Positions 2,182-17,284 of a stretch of DNA of 64,000 bases are shown piece after piece. A model generated the notes under the pieces. That model did no database searches. It was not told where the DNA came from and was given only the letters and a program-made list of their open reading frames with translations. The translations under genes were made by a program, and so were the position numbers. Numbering within the stretch: the stretch's first letter is position 1; each line of letters starts with the position of its first letter. The DNA comes from Nostoc sp. T09 (GTDB lineage Bacteria; Cyanobacteriota; Cyanobacteriia; Cyanobacteriales; Nostocaceae): positions 1 to 64,000 of the forward strand of contig NZ_MTAV01000003.1 in assembly GCF_002154695.1 (NCBI RefSeq), read 5' to 3'.

Positions 2182-2222
2182 TTTAACCTAAATTAAACCT
2201 TTATTTAATTAAAATTAAACCA
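2182..2222 (+). promoter_or_regulatory. Putative Pho box array (four 8-mers, 11-bp period)
   Basis: Four related 8-mers start at 2182 (TTTAACCT), 2193 (TTAAACCT), 2204 (TTTAATTA) and 2215 (TTAAACCA), each separated by 3 bp, usually A-rich. The spacing and the TTAACC-like core fit the direct-repeat box bound by the cyanobacterial PhoB/SphR response regulator. It lies between the divergent CYTH gene and ppk, about 135 bp before the ppk start. The third unit is weak and the region is AT-rich, so chance remains possible. Confidence 0.6.
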
Positions 2223-2356
2223 ACATGGAAGTATAAAATTAGCTTTATTTAATCGCCATACAAAAATCAAAGATAGCTGATTTAAAAGAAATAGCCCATG
2301 TTATCGTAAGTAAAAAATAATTCTGCTTAAATCATTTTAATTTGCTAAAAAGAATT

Positions 2357-4525
2357 ATGGGTAAAGCGAAAAAGACTAGCAAAGATATTAATCTGAATGC
2401 TCCTCAGTATTACTTTAATCGCGAACTCAGCTGGTTGGAATTTAATCGGCGTGTTTTACATGAAGCACTAGACCGCCGCACTCCACTACTAGAAAGATTG
2501 AAATTTACTGCTATCTTCAGTTCTAATCTAGATGAATTTTTCATGGTGCGTGTTGCACTTCTCAAAGAACAATTTCAAGCACAAATAAACCGGCCAACTA
2601 TCGATGGACTTACCCCACAACAACAATTAGAAGCAATCTATCAATGCCTACATCCAATGGTGATTGAACAGCATCGTTACTTTGAGCAAGTACTACGTCC
2701 AGAAATGGCATCGCATGGCATTCATCTTCTTAATTACATTGATCTTAGCCCAGAACAGCGTAGTTACTTACAACAAATATTTCAAAAAAAGATTTTTCCC
2801 GTTCTTACCCCTCTAGCAGTAGATCCTAGTCATCCCTTCCCTTTGATGGCGAATCTTAGTCTCAATTTAGCAGTGGTAGTAAAAGCTCCAAACACAGGAG
2901 AAGAAAAGTTTGCTAGAGTTAAAGTCCCAAATATTTTACCTCGTTTTATTTGCCTACCTCAGGAATTGCAACCACAAAATGGTAAGTTAAACCACTGGAC
3001 AGGTGTTGCTGTAGAGCAGATTATTGCTCACAATTTAGAAGTTTTATTTCCAGGGATGATTATTAAAGAATATCATCTGTTTCGCTTAACTCGTGATGCT
3101 GATTTAGAATTAGCAGAAGAAGCTAATGACTTATTATTAGCAATTCAACAGGAATTACGTAGGCGTCACTTTGGTGGCTCTGTAGTGCGATTAGAAATAC
3201 AACCATCAATGCCTTCTTCAGTACGACAGATGCTGATGGCAGAAATGGAATTGGTTGAGAGTGATATTTATGAAATAGACGGCTTACTAAATTTGAAAGA
3301 TTTGATGTCTTTGATGAAGTTGCCTCTGCCTGAATTGAAAGATCCAACTTGGACACCGATTATTCCACCTCGGCTGCGTCCTTTCCTTCAATCGCGTAAA
3401 ATTGCCAATGTCGATAGTCAGAAAACCAGCATTTTTTCGGCAATTCAACAAAAAGATTTGCTAGTGCATCATCCCTATGAATCGTTTAGTTGCTCTGTAG
3501 AGAAATTTATTGCGCAAGCTGCCCGCGATCCTAATGTATTAGCAATTAAGATGACACTTTATCGCACTACCGGAGATTCTGAGATTATCGGTTCTCTAAT
3601 TACTGCTGCTGAGAGTGGTAAACAAGTTGCTGTTATTGTAGAACTTAAAGCTCGCTTTGATGAAGAGAATAATATTACTTGGGCTACTCAATTAGAAAAA
3701 TCTGGTATTCATGTAATCTATGGAATTGTAGGCCTAAAGACTCACACTAAAATTGTACTGGTAGTACGTCAGGAAGGAGAAGATATACGTCGATATGTGC
3801 ATATTGGCACCGGAAATTATAATGCTAAAACAGCGAATTTATATACTGATGTGGGGCTACTAAGTTGTCGAGAAGATTTAGGGGCAGATTTAACCGATTT
3901 ATTTAATTATTTGACAGGCTATTCCTGTCAAGAGTCTTACCGCAAATTGCTAGTATCTCCCGTCAATATGCGCGATCGCATTATTGCCTTAATTCACAGA
4001 GAAATCGAACACTGTAAAAACGGCAACAGCGGTCAGATCATTGCCAAAATGAATTCTTTGGTTGATTCCCAAATTATTGCTGCTCTATACGAAGCTTCTC
4101 AAGCTGGGGTAAAAATTGACTTGATTATCCGAGGTATTTGTTGTTTGCGTCCTGGAATTCCTGAAGTCAGTGAAAATATCCGTGTTATCAGTATTATTGG
4201 TCGTTTTTTAGAACATTCGCGGATATTTTACTTCTCGAATAATGAACAAAATGAAGTATACATTGGCAGTGCTGATTGGATGCCTCGCAACTTAGATCGC
4301 CGCGTGGAAGCAGTTACACCAGTTGAAGATGCTGAGATTGTCCAAACCTTGCAAAATATCTTAGCAATCATGCTGGGAGATAATCGACAAGCTTGGGAAC
4401 TAAAGTCAGATGGTTCTTACGTTCAACGTTGCCCTGAGCAAGATGGAGCAGAACTTTGTGCCCAAAATATTCTGATGGAAAAGACGCAACAATTATCAGT
4501 TAATCAGTTGTTTGCCACATTATAA
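2357..4525 (+). CDS. ppk: Polyphosphate kinase (PPK1)
   Basis: About 722 residues, full length for PPK1, which reversibly transfers the terminal phosphate of ATP to polyphosphate in the cytoplasm. The N-terminal domain opens with YYFNRELSWLEFN and NLDEFFMVRV. The C-terminal half has two PLD-like catalytic domains. The motif YVHIGTGNYN (His near residue 482) corresponds to the phosphorylated histidine of E. coli PPK (His435); HTKIVLV and the late NEVYIGSADWM stretch are also typical. An upstream TTG at 2342 is in frame, but the ATG at 2357 is preferred because it is a standard start. The gene is transcribed away from the CYTH gene behind the Pho-like array, suggesting induction on phosphate limitation. 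Confidence 0.95.
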   Translation: MGKAKKTSKDINLNAPQYYFNRELSWLEFNRRVLHEALDRRTPLLERLKFTAIFSSNLDEFFMVRVALLKEQFQAQINRPTIDGLTPQQQLEAIYQCLHPMVIEQHRYFEQVLRPEMASHGIHLLNYIDLSPEQRSYLQQIFQKKIFPVLTPLAVDPSHPFPLMANLSLNLAVVVKAPNTGEEKFARVKVPNILPRFICLPQELQPQNGKLNHWTGVAVEQIIAHNLEVLFPGMIIKEYHLFRLTRDADLELAEEANDLLLAIQQELRRRHFGGSVVRLEIQPSMPSSVRQMLMAEMELVESDIYEIDGLLNLKDLMSLMKLPLPELKDPTWTPIIPPRLRPFLQSRKIANVDSQKTSIFSAIQQKDLLVHHPYESFSCSVEKFIAQAARDPNVLAIKMTLYRTTGDSEIIGSLITAAESGKQVAVIVELKARFDEENNITWATQLEKSGIHVIYGIVGLKTHTKIVLVVRQEGEDIRRYVHIGTGNYNAKTANLYTDVGLLSCREDLGADLTDLFNYLTGYSCQESYRKLLVSPVNMRDRIIALIHREIEHCKNGNSGQIIAKMNSLVDSQIIAALYEASQAGVKIDLIIRGICCLRPGIPEVSENIRVISIIGRFLEHSRIFYFSNNEQNEVYIGSADWMPRNLDRRVEAVTPVEDAEIVQTLQNILAIMLGDNRQAWELKSDGSYVQRCPEQDGAELCAQNILMEKTQQLSVNQLFATL

Positions 4526-4551
4526 ATGCTACAACCAACGTTGATGATTAA

Positions 4552-4713
4552 ACCGAACAAATTTGTTCTATTGGCTCTGGTGCAATTGAATCTACTATTA
4601 AACAGATTGACCGTAGAACTAAAATCTTCGCTGCACAATGGCAACTTGAGAATATTCCTCAAGTCATTGCTCATCGTTGCGCTTATCTTAATGAATTAAT
4701 CTTTGCTCGCTAA
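4552..4713 (+). pseudogene. C-terminal remnant of an ISKra4-like transposase
   Basis: A frame bounded by a stop at 4549-4551 and ending at 4713 translates to about 53 residues with no start codon. It includes CSIGSGAIES, IKQIDRRTK and HRCAYLNELI. The GSGAIES motif and the final RCAYLN stretch are characteristic of the C-terminus of ISKra4-type transposases as found in cyanobacteria. Only the tail survives; no terminal inverted repeats were seen. The family call is from memory of the motif. Confidence 0.6.
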
Positions 4714-4855
4714 ATAAAAACTGGGATGCTCCCCTGTTCCCTACCTCTACTTTGTAAGTTCAGCAATTAAATCGGATTACTATATATAAAAACCGAGTCA
4801 AACAAATAATGGGTTTCAATAAATTTAGAGTTCATTTATCAAGCGTAGGTATGAG

Positions 4856-10289: not shown

Positions 10290-13200
10290 TTAATCAAACC
10301 TTTGAGGATTTTTCAGAAACTCTCGAAGTTGTTTACCTTTAAAACTTTTAGCAAGTTGACTTACATGAGTGGCAAACGCTACCCATTTTCTATCTAATTG
10401 TTCTAGTTTTTCGGCTTGTCGGATAATAGCTCGTAAGTCACCCTTCTTTGCTAAATCTAGCAAGATTGCAACTTCTGCTGCGGGGGGAACAATAAATTCT
10501 GCATTGAGTATTTTAGATTTTATATTCGGATCTTCTTGCTCTTGATTACCAATTTTCACCTCTTCATAAACCCATTCCAAACCTAAATGAATCCCTATTT
10601 TTTCTAAAAGCTCAGATAGTCTGAATGGTTTGAGAATAAAATCATTGAAACCAGCTTTTTGACTCTGTTGTTTATCCAAGTCAAAAGCGCTAGCTGAAAG
10701 AGCAATTACTACAACTTCTTTTAAGTCTGGTAACATCCTGAGACGACGAGTTGCTTCAAAACCGTCCATCACGGTCATGACTAAGTCCATAAAAATTAAA
10801 TCTGGCTTAAATTCACGCGCTATCCTCAGGCTATCTAAGCCATCTACTGCTTCCATGACTTCAAACCCTAAAGGCTCTAGTAAATTTGCCAAAACAGAGC
10901 GATTTGCCCATTTATCATCTACAACTAAAACTTTGCGTTTAGAACTAACAAAACTGATGATGTTACTTTGATCGATATTTTGAATATTAGTTTGTTGGAA
11001 AACTTGAGGTAAATCTAAATCTAGCCAAAAAATACTTCCTTTGCCTAAAGTACTTTTAACCTTGAGTTCACCACCCATCATCTGCACTAATTGTCTACTA
11101 ATTGCCAGTCCTAATCCTGTTCCTTCCGCTTTACGACTATACTCACCAACCTGCTTGAACGGCAAAAATATTTCTTCTAATTGCTCTTGTGCAATGCCGA
11201 TACCTGTATCTTCAACTTGAAACCGCAGTTTCCCATTTTCAGAGCCAACCTGGAAAGTTATACTACCTTTTTCAGTAAATTTTACTGCATTACTCAGTAA
11301 ATTAATTAAAACTTGGCGCAATCGTTTTTCGTCTGCTCGAATGGCTTTTGGTAGAGGAGAAAGCGCCTTGTAATTTAGTACAACTCCCTTTTGTTCAGCA
11401 CCAATGCGGCAGATTGCAACAATACTTTCTAGAAATTCTACTAAATTAAACTCTTTAATATAAAGCTCCATTTTACGAGCTTCTATTTTAGAGATGTCTA
11501 AAATATCACTAATCAGTGTTAATAGATGTTCACCACACTGATGAATTATGTTAATCCCATTTTTTTGCTGACTAGTTAAAGTTTTATCTTTCTGAAAAAT
11601 TTGCGTATAACCTAAAATACCATTGAGTGGGGTACGGAGTTCATGACTCATGCTAGCGAGGAATTCACTCTTAGCGCGGTTAGCGGTTTCGGCTACTTCT
11701 TCTGCACGTTGGCGATCGCCAATTTCCTGTTGTAGTTGTAAATTTTTATCTTGTAACTCTAGCGTTCGGTGTTGTACTTTTGCTGCCAGGTTCCGGTTAT
11801 ATTCCTCTAAATCATTATAAAGACGCGCATTTTCAATCGAGATTGCTGCTTGAGATGATAAAAGTTGTAAAACTTCCAATCGCTGTGGTGTAAATGCTCC
11901 CACAGTCAAGTTATTTTCTAAATACAGAATGCCAATAACTTTACCTTGATTAATAATCGGCGTAGATAAAATTGATTTTGGTTTATGGTTGATGACATAG
12001 CTGTCTGTTGTAAATACTCCTTCACGGGTAGCATTGTTTAAGACAACATACTGCTGAGTTCGATGCACATAGTTTATAACAGATATGGGTAACTGTTCGC
12101 TTGATTCTACAGGTATGGGTTGCTGTATATTTATCTCATTTTTTCCGATACTGCCTGAAGCTTTGATAAATAGTTTCCCTGAGTCCTCTAAAATCAAAAA
12201 TCCTATTTCTGCACCAGCACTTTCAATAACAATGTGCATTAATTTTGCTAGTAGCTTATCTAACACTATTTCCCCAGAAAGAGCTTGTGAGGCTTTCATG
12301 ACTGTGGCTAAATCGAGAACTTGAGAATTACTTCCAGTCGTGGCTATTTTTGTCAAAGTATTTTCTGTATTGATGTTTGCGATGTTCTGCGATGTCTCAA
12401 GACAAGCCACTTCGTGTCTACGCATAATCAATTGGGGATAGCGTGCTTCTAAATCTTTGACTTTAGCCATCGCTCCCCAATGGCTATAAGCTTGGTAAGC
12501 ATTAGTCATATAGATGCGGGCAATGGTTTGTTTACCCCATGACAGATAAAATTTAGCAGCAAGTTCGTGAGCGAGGGCTTCTTCGTTGATGTACTGGTTT
12601 TCCTTAGCAAGTGCGATCGCTTTCTCATAATTTTCTATTGCCTCTATTTTTTCACCTAAAACTCGATGCTGTTCTGCCTCCACTAGATAGAATTTGTGTA
12701 GATAATTCATTGGGGCATGATGTGCCCATTTCAGCAATTTTTCTTGATTATTTTGTACGCGTTTAAGAATTTCTTTTTGCCCAAACTGTGGACTATCGAT
12801 ATACAGGGCAATCCGCACTAAAGAATCATAGAAATAAAAGAGACCAACCGTTACCATTCCTGTAGCTGCCGCAAAATAACTTTCTAATTGAACGATATTT
12901 TCCAGCGCTTGAGAGTAGTCTTCAAACCAATAACAAAGAACAAATTTGTGGAAGTATAACAATTGAATAGCTACTTGGTCGTTGCTTTGCTGATGAATGG
13001 GAAGCATTTTCTGCTCATCGTAGGCTTCACCCTTTAAAATGCAAGAATTTTCAGCCTTTCCCATCATGTTTAAAACGGCTTGCCAAGTGATTTCGTGATA
13101 ATGAAGTGCTGTTTCTTGCTTGAGTTGTTTAATAGTATCTCCGTAAGTTACTGCTTCTCGTTCAAGGACAGTTAGTTGTTGACCACTTAAATATAAGAAA

Positions 13201-16200
13201 AGACAGTATTCAAATGCACTAAAGGCAGCATATTCTAAATCTCCAGTCTCTAGTCCGTTAGAGTAATCTGAGCGAAAATGTTCTGAGGTATTCCTAAGGT
13301 GTTCTTTCCAATGTCGGACAAAGACATTTACCATGTGGCTGGTCTTGGTGCTGATTTCTTTAGCATTCAATTTTGACAGTAAATTCAAAGCTAATTGACC
13401 AAACTGATAGCCTTGCTCAATATCTCCCGCAACCCCGCACAGAAGAAAGCCATAAAGGGCATAAGCAAAGGGAGAAACAGCAGCATTGCCGTATTCGACG
13501 GATATACCGACCTGTTTCAACACCATTAGAGGTATCAGTTCTGGCGTAACGATGAAGGTAGCAACAAATAAACTTGATAGCAGCCTCAAGATTGCCAATT
13601 TATCAGGGTCGGTCATTAGAGGTAAGTCAATTAAATCAGAAGGTTCTTTTCCATTCAAAATTAATGCAATTTCCTCAAATCCTTGCCCAATATCTGAGTG
13701 GTTCACTTTTTCAGGAAATTCCACCCCCAATAACTTTAAGATTTTTAGCCCTGTATTAACCGCTTCTTTGGGCTGGTTCTGTGATACGTAAGCTTGAATC
13801 TGGACTGTGTACAGCTTCACTGTATCTATTAGGGAATTAGCGCGGTTTTGCACTATCTCAACAAATCCCTGCATCCGCTTAAAGTCACCACTGAGGTAGT
13901 TTGCTTCTACTGCTTCGGTATGTAACGCTAATGTTAGTTCATACTGACTATGCCAACTATCTTCTGTAAGCAGTGCTAACCCTGCTGTGAGGTATTTAAC
14001 AGCAGTTTCATAGGCTGTTGCTGCTTTAGCTTTTTTACCTGCTATTAAATTCAGTTTAGCTAATTCATATTTTTGAGTTTCTTGGGAGATTAATTCAACT
14101 CCAATATTTAAATGATTAACAATCTCAAATATATTTTCTTCTATATCTTTTTCTGATGTATTTTTCAGCAGCAATTCACCTAGTTTTAGGTGTGTTTGCT
14201 TTTGTAAACGATCAGAAATTAAAGAATAAGATGCTTGCTGTACTCGGTCATGCAAAAATTTGTAAGTAATTTTTAAATGCTCAGTTGCAATTTCGGATTC
14301 AAAAGTCAGAGGGATTTTGTAGGCATCACTTAAAGGTATAATTAAACCTGCTTGCAAAGCTTCCCACAAATCATGAGCAGTTTCAAGCTGAGATTTTTCA
14401 TTAACAATTGCTAAAACTTCTAAAGTGAACTTATCTCCTATACAAGCAGCTATTTTCAAAACATTAATTGTTTGCAATGACAGTTTTTGAATCTGGCTGA
14501 CCATCAATTCGACAACATTATCTGTAATATTAATACCTTGTAGCTGCTCAATATCCCATTGCCAAATACCTTGAGAAAAATTAAATTTTATTAAATTATC
14601 TTGATGCAGATATTTAAGTAACTGTGTTAAGAAAAATGGATTACCTTGGGTTTTATCAAATACTAAATTAGCTAGTGGCTTAACTATTAATGTGCTGCTA
14701 TGTATAGTATCAGCCACTAATTCATTCACGCAGTCAATGTTCAAAGGTCGCAAAATAATATTATTAATACTTCTAAACTGTTGAATCTGCTCTAATGTCT
14801 GTATTAAGGGATGAGTAGCACTGACTTCATTATCCCGATAAGCTCCGATTAATAATAAATATTTGCTTTCCTGATCGGTAATAATTAACTCTATTAATTT
14901 TAGAGAAGCTGAATCCACCCATTGTAAATCATCTAAAAATAAAACTAGAGGATGTTCCTGTTTAGCAAAAACATGAATAAACTGTTGAAATACCCGATTA
15001 AAGCGATTTTGGGATTCTGTTCCACCCAATTCTGGTATGGCAGGCTGAGAACCAATAATGCGTTCTACTTCCGGTATTACATCTATGATGATTTGACCAT
15101 TTTCACCAAGCGCTACTAATAGTTGAGATTTCCAATTTTCTAACGATTCAGTACTTTCGGTTAACAGTTGCTGCATTAATTGTTGAAAAGCTTGAGCTAG
15201 TGAAGCATAAGGGATATTACGTTTAAACTGGTCGAATTTACCCGAAATAAAATATCCTCTCTGGTGCACAATTGGCTTATGAATTTCATTTACCAAAGAA
15301 GATTTGCCAATTCCAGAGTACCCCGATACCAGCATCATCTCTGTTTGACCGTTGCTGATACGCTCAAAAGCATTTAATAATATATTTACTTCTGCTTCTC
15401 TGCCATAAAGTTTTTGGGGAATGAGAAATTGACTGGATAAATCTAGCTGTGCAATAGTAAATTCAGTAATTTGACCGTGGTTTTCTAATTGCTGTAAACA
15501 TAATTCTAAATCTGCTTTTAACCCCAAAGCGCTTTGATATCTATCTTCTGCTGTCTTGGCTAAAAGTTTCATCACAATCTCAGAAACCATCTGCGGAATT
15601 TCTGAATTTATTTCGTGAGGTGAAGCTGGAGTTTTAGCAATGTGGGAGTGAATTATTTCTAACGAATCATTGCTATCAAAAGGTAGCAAACCAGTGAGCA
15701 TCTGATACAACGTGACACCCAAAGAATAAAAGTCGGTACGATAATCAAGAGAGCGATTCATTCTGCCAGTCTGCTCAGGAGACATATAGGCAAGTGTACC
15801 TTCGATTAAATTGGGGTTGTTGATATTTGGGTTTTCTCTTGATAAGTATGATGCAATGCTAAAGTCTATAATATTAATAGTTAAGTTTTTAGAATTAATA
15901 ACGATATTTTGAGGTTTAATATCTTTGTGAATAATATTATTTTGATGTATCCGAGCAATTGTTGAAGCCAAAGAAATAGCAATTTTTAAAAAATTACTTA
16001 ATTCAAAGTTATGAGTATCGATGAAATTTTTTAGGGTCTCTCCTGTAAAATCTGACAATATTAATGCCAGCCCATTTTGATAATTTTCTAAAGTCAGGGA
16101 TTTTACAACTCCTTCTATATTCAAAGATTGGAGTATTTGATACTCGTGTCGCAATCTAGCAAGCTGTTCTATAGTCGGATATTCACTTTTAAGTGTTTTA

Positions 16201-16307
16201 ACGATCGCAGAGGTTTTATCTGACTCTCTGACAGCGCGATAAACACAAGTGTTAGTACCGTCATACAAAACTTGAACGATGTTATAACCAGCAATGTTGA
16301 TACTCAT
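10290..16307 (-). CDS. Ser/Thr kinase - AAA ATPase - GAF - histidine kinase - receiver hybrid
   Basis: 2005 residues. Domains in order: a Ser/Thr kinase (about 7-270; catalytic loop HKDIKPQN at 127-134, DFS instead of DFG at 148-150); an AAA/ORC-like ATPase (about 295-600; P-loop GYSGIGKSS near 330, Walker B VLFLDDLQW); a long helical TPR-like region (about 690-1290); a GAF domain (about 1330-1470); a coiled coil; a histidine kinase (H-box SHELRTPLNG, His near 1555; [11 protein letters not shown]); a receiver (phospho-acceptor Asp near 1841 in FMDLVM); and a helical C-terminal tail. This large family is common in filamentous cyanobacteria and is thought to integrate signals through both Ser/Thr and His-Asp phosphorylation. 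No transmembrane segment is seen. Input and target are unknown. Confidence 0.93.
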   Translation of the reverse strand: MSINIAGYNIVQVLYDGTNTCVYRAVRESDKTSAIVKTLKSEYPTIEQLARLRHEYQILQSLNIEGVVKSLTLENYQNGLALILSDFTGETLKNFIDTHNFELSNFLKIAISLASTIARIHQNNIIHKDIKPQNIVINSKNLTINIIDFSIASYLSRENPNINNPNLIEGTLAYMSPEQTGRMNRSLDYRTDFYSLGVTLYQMLTGLLPFDSNDSLEIIHSHIAKTPASPHEINSEIPQMVSEIVMKLLAKTAEDRYQSALGLKADLELCLQQLENHGQITEFTIAQLDLSSQFLIPQKLYGREAEVNILLNAFERISNGQTEMMLVSGYSGIGKSSLVNEIHKPIVHQRGYFISGKFDQFKRNIPYASLAQAFQQLMQQLLTESTESLENWKSQLLVALGENGQIIIDVIPEVERIIGSQPAIPELGGTESQNRFNRVFQQFIHVFAKQEHPLVLFLDDLQWVDSASLKLIELIITDQESKYLLLIGAYRDNEVSATHPLIQTLEQIQQFRSINNIILRPLNIDCVNELVADTIHSSTLIVKPLANLVFDKTQGNPFFLTQLLKYLHQDNLIKFNFSQGIWQWDIEQLQGINITDNVVELMVSQIQKLSLQTINVLKIAACIGDKFTLEVLAIVNEKSQLETAHDLWEALQAGLIIPLSDAYKIPLTFESEIATEHLKITYKFLHDRVQQASYSLISDRLQKQTHLKLGELLLKNTSEKDIEENIFEIVNHLNIGVELISQETQKYELAKLNLIAGKKAKAATAYETAVKYLTAGLALLTEDSWHSQYELTLALHTEAVEANYLSGDFKRMQGFVEIVQNRANSLIDTVKLYTVQIQAYVSQNQPKEAVNTGLKILKLLGVEFPEKVNHSDIGQGFEEIALILNGKEPSDLIDLPLMTDPDKLAILRLLSSLFVATFIVTPELIPLMVLKQVGISVEYGNAAVSPFAYALYGFLLCGVAGDIEQGYQFGQLALNLLSKLNAKEISTKTSHMVNVFVRHWKEHLRNTSEHFRSDYSNGLETGDLEYAAFSAFEYCLFLYLSGQQLTVLEREAVTYGDTIKQLKQETALHYHEITWQAVLNMMGKAENSCILKGEAYDEQKMLPIHQQSNDQVAIQLLYFHKFVLCYWFEDYSQALENIVQLESYFAAATGMVTVGLFYFYDSLVRIALYIDSPQFGQKEILKRVQNNQEKLLKWAHHAPMNYLHKFYLVEAEQHRVLGEKIEAIENYEKAIALAKENQYINEEALAHELAAKFYLSWGKQTIARIYMTNAYQAYSHWGAMAKVKDLEARYPQLIMRRHEVACLETSQNIANINTENTLTKIATTGSNSQVLDLATVMKASQALSGEIVLDKLLAKLMHIVIESAGAEIGFLILEDSGKLFIKASGSIGKNEINIQQPIPVESSEQLPISVINYVHRTQQYVVLNNATREGVFTTDSYVINHKPKSILSTPIINQGKVIGILYLENNLTVGAFTPQRLEVLQLLSSQAAISIENARLYNDLEEYNRNLAAKVQHRTLELQDKNLQLQQEIGDRQRAEEVAETANRAKSEFLASMSHELRTPLNGILGYTQIFQKDKTLTSQQKNGINIIHQCGEHLLTLISDILDISKIEARKMELYIKEFNLVEFLESIVAICRIGAEQKGVVLNYKALSPLPKAIRADEKRLRQVLINLLSNAVKFTEKGSITFQVGSENGKLRFQVEDTGIGIAQEQLEEIFLPFKQVGEYSRKAEGTGLGLAISRQLVQMMGGELKVKSTLGKGSIFWLDLDLPQVFQQTNIQNIDQSNIISFVSSKRKVLVVDDKWANRSVLANLLEPLGFEVMEAVDGLDSLRIAREFKPDLIFMDLVMTVMDGFEATRRLRMLPDLKEVVVIALSASAFDLDKQQSQKAGFNDFILKPFRLSELLEKIGIHLGLEWVYEEVKIGNQEQEDPNIKSKILNAEFIVPPAAEVAILLDLAKKGDLRAIIRQAEKLEQLDRKWVAFATHVSQLAKSFKGKQLREFLKNPQRFD

Positions 16308-16885: not shown

Positions 16886-17284
16886 TCAGCCTGATAGAGA
16901 ACACTCACAAAGGTAAGTACAACACAACTCCCTTCCATTCTGCTTGTTCACTAAAATCAAGTTATGTTGTAGTGCAAGGGCTGCAATCCAAATATCATTC
17001 TCAGGTAAAGGACGACCTTGGAGTCTTAACTTGTTTTTGACATCCCCATATCTGTGAGCAGTTTCGGCATCACATACAAGCACTGCGCTGTTGGCAACCA
17101 ACTCATCCACTCTTGCCAAATTCGCTTGGGTTCGCCCCGATTTTCTTGCGCCGTAATACAACTCACCAATTGCAATACTTGGAATAAAGACTTCGTTGGC
17201 TTGAGCAAGGTTGTTTTTGATGACTGCTTCATCTGCGAAAAGAACAATGATGATATTGGTATCCAGCAAGTACCTACCACTCAT
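16886..17284 (-). CDS. vapC: PIN-domain toxin (VapC-like), C-terminus altered
   Basis: 132 residues. The PIN fold is plain: YLLDTNIII (first Asp at residue 8), IGELYYGARKSGR (Glu), and ENDIWIAALALQHNLILV (Asp). VapC toxins are Mg2+-dependent RNases that cut tRNA or rRNA. Most members continue after LILV with S-R-D-x-H-F and a short strand; here the tail is NKQNGRELCCTYLCECSLSG, with no Asp at the fourth position. A frameshift or recombination at the 3' end is likely and activity is doubtful. Its ATG overlaps the end of a short antitoxin gene (17274-17396) by 11 bp, which supports a real TA operon. Confidence 0.85.
   Translation of the reverse strand: MSGRYLLDTNIIIVLFADEAVIKNNLAQANEVFIPSIAIGELYYGARKSGRTQANLARVDELVANSAVLVCDAETAHRYGDVKNKLRLQGRPLPENDIWIAALALQHNLILVNKQNGRELCCTYLCECSLSG

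Follow-up and report, generated by a model that had tools for sequence, protein, structure and literature searches.

A recurrent Pho-box array, predicted to be an SphR operator, upstream of an accessory polyphosphate kinase gene in Nostoc sp. T09

The cyanobacterial Pho box, as found at pstS, sphX, phoA and nucH, is built of 8-bp units close to CTTAACCT that are separated by 3-bp linkers and run in tandem toward the gene; the unit is also written PyTTAAPyPy(T/A). SphR is reported to activate pst operons (Su 2007, PMC1906773), and in an account of Synechocystis PhoB, mutating any of three TTAA repeats cut or abolished binding (PMC11126600). An array of the same build lies ahead of a polyphosphate kinase (ppk) gene in a 64,000-nt stretch of the Nostoc sp. 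T09 genome, the whole of which is here called the window. Its four repeats are predicted, with a probability of roughly 0.84, to be an operator through which SphR, a PhoB-type regulator, activates an accessory ppk under phosphate starvation.

The array comprises four 8-mers at an exact 11-bp spacing (starts at 2182, 2193, 2204 and 2215), and thus exceeds three tandem direct units at that period; it is flanked by a minus-strand CYTH gene and a plus-strand PPK1 gene, with spacing and flanking genes just as the original prediction gave them (Table 1). In the repeat listing of the window this region appears as a direct repeat of 22 bp, with copies at 2181 and 2203. Units 1 and 3, with their TTAA core in register, match the Pho-box consensus, whereas units 2 and 4, with the core shifted by one base, deviate from it at position 3. 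It is these two that are weak (2.1 and 1.1 bits), and not the third (5.1 bits), which had been singled out as such. The area had rightly been called AT-rich: the spacer between the two genes (2142–2356) has only 21% G+C, so that chance is a real concern.

Table 1. Features of the window around the repeat array, with coordinates, strand and basis of assignment.
Feature	Position	Strand	Basis
CYTH (triphosphate tunnel) protein, 154 aa	1677..2141	-	Pfam CYTH 68.8 bits
Pho box 1, TTTAACCT	2182..2189	+	9.1 bits (Su 2007 matrix)
Pho box 2, TTAAACCT	2193..2200	+	TTAA one base out of register; 2.1 bits
Pho box 3, TTTAATTA	2204..2211	+	5.1 bits
Pho box 4, TTAAACCA	2215..2222	+	TTAA one base out of register; 1.1 bits
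Candidate -10 for ppk, TATAAAAT	2232..2239	+	By eye, 9 nt past last box; tentative
Accessory polyphosphate kinase 1	2357..4525 (ATG; alternative TTG 2342)	+	Pfam PPK domains, TIGR03705, clade placement

Sites were scored with a matrix made from the 27 three-box sites in Table 1 of Su et al. 2007 (PMC1906773); chance levels were taken from 1500 dinucleotide-shuffled versions of the spacer, and ranks from both strands of the window. The three-box score at 2182 (16.3) and the four-box score (17.4) were each reached by just 2/1500 shuffles and ranked first among 127,942 and 127,920 window positions, respectively; scoring against an SphR matrix, which had been suggested as a check, therefore sets the site above background. 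The two-box score was ordinary (reached by 98/1500 shuffles; rank 8 of 127,964), and the two-box consensus had 9 matches in the whole genome versus 9 for a reversed control, so that a pair of boxes is by itself no evidence. Across 400 kb from other stretches of the genome, the three-box score was equalled at 2/798,840 positions, both intergenic, and the four-box score at 0/798,400. Within this single genome the ppk site is good, yet not unique as a three-box site. Helically phased TTAA words might arise in such a spacer by chance, with SphR playing no part, and the base composition, the unremarkable two-box results and the two equally good three-box sites speak for this, although the rarity of the three- and four-box scores among shuffles speaks against it. 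High plus-strand three-box scores at 11044, 14033 and 17025 fall inside open reading frames (10290–16307 and 16886–17284) and were discarded.

A second matrix was derived from pstS, using 32 upstream regions (30 loci of related genomes and two of the Nostoc sp. T09 genome); its two-box model was seeded with the Pho-box consensus and then refined on these Nostocaceae sequences. Pairs near [CG]TT[AT]ACCT, spaced 11 bp, were present in 31/32 upstream regions, the second pstS of Nostoc sp. T09 having no pst-type pair under the two-box model. With the pstS matrix the ppk site ranked first in the window for two, three and four boxes (1, 0 and 0 of 1500 shuffles, respectively), its two-box score being equalled by four sites in the same 400 kb. 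The boxes at ppk have the orientation of those at pst promoters.

The neighbouring gene had been taken for a polyphosphate kinase gene, which holds in that it encodes a PPK1, but it is an accessory PPK1 and not the canonical copy of the genome. The protein scores 879 bits against TIGR03705 (cut-off 466), all four Pfam PPK domains are above cut-off, and GLKTHTK and FLEHSRI, which we take to be the segments holding the active-site histidines, align with the PPK of a solved structure. The closest named PPK1 is that of Desmonostoc vinosum. Three PPK1 genes are present in the genome: C207 (the window copy), C193 (77% identity to it) and C230 (67%). A FastTree phylogeny of the PPK1 proteins collected here unites L093–L119 with the window and C193 copies in one clade with support of 1.000, and leaves the C230 copy (L122) outside. 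The accessory set of 34 used below consists of the window copy, L093–L119, L123 (the C193 copy), L198–L201, which are absent from the tree yet were counted as accessory, and L120, which lies outside the clade and was counted as the second, array-bearing copy in its own genome; the 38 members of the canonical set were assigned by identity. By eye, the sequence following ppk (4526–4715) resembles the end of a transposase, and elsewhere in the window an open reading frame of 490 aa (63–1535) has internal repeats and no Pfam match.

Upstream regions of up to 1200 bp were scored toward ppk and classed as positive where the four-box score was reached by at most 2/200 shuffles. Arrays were found upstream of 29/34 accessory and 6/38 canonical copies (27/32 accessory copies when both from Nostoc sp. 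T09 are removed), counts that overstate the independent evidence, since the genomes are related and the 29 arrays are not independent. The positive accessory copies span ten genera, by database labels. Their period is specific: the mean best four-box score of accessory copies was 19.1 at period 11 versus 3.8–6.4 at periods 8–10 and 12–14, and canonical copies averaged 4.1 at period 11. Scores of the 29 positives ranged from 13.6 to 29.8, that of the window being fourth lowest, and a stronger four-box array (27.7) is present at the C193 copy, 442 bp ahead of its ppk; the canonical copy of Nostoc sp. T09 has no array within 1200 bp. As many as six boxes stand in phase in L103, L109, L110, L113 and L114, and a CTTTACCT unit, which also occurs in pstS upstream regions, was seen in the arrays of L098, L099 and L101. 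The score toward ppk exceeded the reverse in 28/29 positive copies; in L097 the orientation is ambiguous, because the reverse strand scored 23.8 against 16.8 forward. Three canonical loci of one genus (L203, L204 and L205) have in common a weak four-box array 135–145 bp upstream.

That unit sequence varies while the period stays argues for selection. Comparison of the window with L093 showed changes at 1/32 box bases and 16/174 flank bases (0.05 in a neutral simulation), a difference that, for this one pair of sequences, is only suggestive. Across 28 arrays, positions 6 and 7 were pyrimidines in about three quarters of units, a count that is partly circular because the units were chosen by matrix. 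The rarity of the scores among shuffles, this pyrimidine bias and the return of arrays through the clade at period 11, but at none of the six other periods tried, make phasing by chance a very unlikely source of the array.

Five accessory copies (L105, L107, L111, L112 and L116) had no array within 1200 bp. In L105, ppk sits behind a phosphoglucomutase gene, as it does in L001, with the same ppk upstream region; in L001, three boxes (0/200 shuffles) lie ahead of the phosphoglucomutase gene that precedes ppk, the four-box score there being reached by 13/200 shuffles. Phosphoglucomutase is divergent from ppk in L120, with the array in between. The remaining four belong to one subclade (flanks L239–L242), in which the accessory ppk has a pstB-like gene ahead of it, coding for an ABC ATPase that matches Pfam ABC_tran only and, in L111, seen as a partial frame of 194 aa. 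No strong array was found in 6.5–8.7 kb at these four loci (top three-box score 11.5, on the ppk strand), and by eye no other pst genes were recognised beside the pstB-like gene and ppk, so that inclusion of ppk in a Pho-controlled pst operon was considered and set aside as unsupported. The genes alongside in L239 encode a carbohydrate phosphorylase, an aldolase and a phosphoketolase.

The repeats had originally been placed in an upstream region shared by both flanking genes. An operator that serves both, or chiefly CYTH, would accord with the distance of 40 bp between the start codon of CYTH and the beginning of the array and with the occurrence of a CYTH–ppk pair in six accessory loci (the window, L093, L098, L099, L100 and L101), but in 6/6 of these loci the score toward ppk is higher than the reverse, and arrays persist where the neighbour of ppk is not CYTH (L094, L095, L097, L102 and L106). 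Moreover, among 25 upstream regions of unlinked CYTH genes, taken from the 30 loci listed of 104 genomes with a match, 23 had no array toward CYTH and two passed, with scores of 12.0 and 12.9. These two lines of evidence, arrays without a CYTH neighbour and CYTH genes without arrays, make ppk the likely target; a shared operator is unlikely, and control of both genes finds no support, the array reading toward ppk and travelling with ppk rather than with CYTH. On sequence grounds the array most likely belongs to ppk, and CYTH is probably not its target.

The CYTH protein itself has no NCBIfam match; its nearest solved structures are 3typ and 2fbl. It aligns with 2fbl (NE1496), which we take to be NeuTTM, over residues 4–146, with EIERK at the start, and a Tyr and a Lys fit Tyr-28 and Lys-52 provided that the numbering is offset by one. 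By these features (EIERK start, Tyr and Lys) it resembles the NeuTTM tripolyphosphatase of Nitrosomonas europaea; a short-chain polyphosphatase is a possible identity, and the pairing with ppk may be metabolic.

A candidate for the cognate regulator is encoded elsewhere in the genome, where putative sphR, sphS and phoU genes are grouped. The top PhoB-type regulator scores 250 bits to TIGR02154, under the curated cut-off of 296, and its gene is followed by those for a PhoR/PnpS-like kinase and PhoU, the last over its own cut-off; SphR and SphS are accordingly used here as putative names. In Nodularia, phoB, phoR and phoU are given nearby locus numbers (PMC3610870). The genome contains 21 Trans_reg_C matches, and some other OmpR-family regulator might be responsible. 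RpaB sites are likewise 8-bp direct repeats, but the period of their HLR1 element is 10 bp, a period at which accessory copies averaged 4.9 as opposed to 19.1 at period 11, and the unit of the ppk array resembles that of pstS promoters, leaving such a regulator highly improbable. Assignment of the repeats as a Pho box, as first proposed, is instead favoured by the matrix score, the 11-bp period, the orientation, the recurrence in relatives and the sphR–sphS–phoU cluster.

The position of the promoter bears on whether SphR would activate or repress. If SphR bound and repressed, it would occlude a promoter at 2153–2182 and ppk would fall under starvation, and the best sigma-70-like match toward ppk (TTGACT-18-TATCAT, 10/12) does lie just upstream of the boxes, its last base (2182) being also the first of box 1. 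However, the promoter scan returned only three promoter-like sites versus 1.5 expected, and in L093 the last T of TATCAT is lost though the boxes are kept. The tentative -10 downstream of the array is not listed by the promoter scan at 2232–2239 and is altered in L093, and its position was not fixed in the conservation comparison; by eye, many pstS upstream regions have a TATATT-like hexamer about 8 nt past the last box.

Expression data from other cyanobacteria were also weighed, without implying that the genes concerned correspond to the accessory paralogue. In Nodularia, the single ppk listed was higher after 14 days of phosphate limitation, although the authors infer that control over polyphosphate accumulation is mostly post-transcriptional, and the same source states that the polyphosphate genes of Synechocystis are outside the P-regulon (PMC9846622). 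In Nostoc PCC 7118, ppk1 peaks in phosphate-starved cells according to one table row, unlike the text of the same paper, in which ppk has a single maximum around phosphate re-feeding (PMC7564538). Activation is favoured because of the analogy with pst promoters, whose boxes are oriented alike and whose operons SphR is reported to activate (Su 2007), and because the Nodularia ppk goes up (PMC9846622); repression is distinctly unlikely.

Activation by SphR would operate as follows. Under phosphate starvation SphS would phosphorylate SphR, which would align head-to-tail along the 11-bp repeats and bring RNA polymerase to a promoter lying immediately downstream of the array; PPK1 from the accessory gene would then increase alongside the Pst transporter, and the enzyme would thereby be ready to convert incoming phosphate to polyphosphate once the supply returns. 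The window copy of ppk is thus probably induced once phosphate is exhausted; binding, activation over repression, the exact promoter and the physiological role are what we infer. In Caulobacter, according to a 2026 paper, recovery from phosphate starvation requires PPK1, which fits a starvation-primed PPK.

Knowledge of the regulation of cyanobacterial polyphosphate is described as limited in one review (PMC7332688); according to another, most bacteria store phosphate by inducing Ppk (PMC4415409). The main text of Su 2007 (PMC1906773) contains neither "ppk" nor "polyphosphate kinase", and a literature search, confined to main texts and mostly to openly accessible papers, returned no report of a cyanobacterial ppk paralogue bearing a Pho box. 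We consider it reasonably likely that Nostocaceae possess a dedicated, starvation-type accessory PPK1 clade that the Pho regulon has taken over by way of SphR arrays with three to six boxes, unlike most housekeeping PPK1, such that transcription of a second isoenzyme would govern overplus polyphosphate synthesis. A recurrent Pho-box array at a ppk paralogue would point to how filamentous species ready themselves for luxury phosphate uptake, and a switch of this kind at the accessory ppk is relevant to phosphorus removal and to the ecology of blooms.

The type of site is already known, and in other bacteria ppk is known to be under Pho control. Work on Streptomyces lividans reportedly connects PhoP with ppk, and in Microlunatus the phosphate-linked two-component system PolS–PolR is described as tied to ppk (PMC6754071). 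Both are instances, from outside the cyanobacterial phylum, of the arrangement proposed here, a phosphate-linked two-component system tied to ppk. Compared with the known cyanobacterial Pho box, the window array differs in standing at a polyphosphate kinase paralogue, and some of its relatives at ppk have six in-phase units, as against three per target in Table 1 of Su 2007 (PMC1906773).
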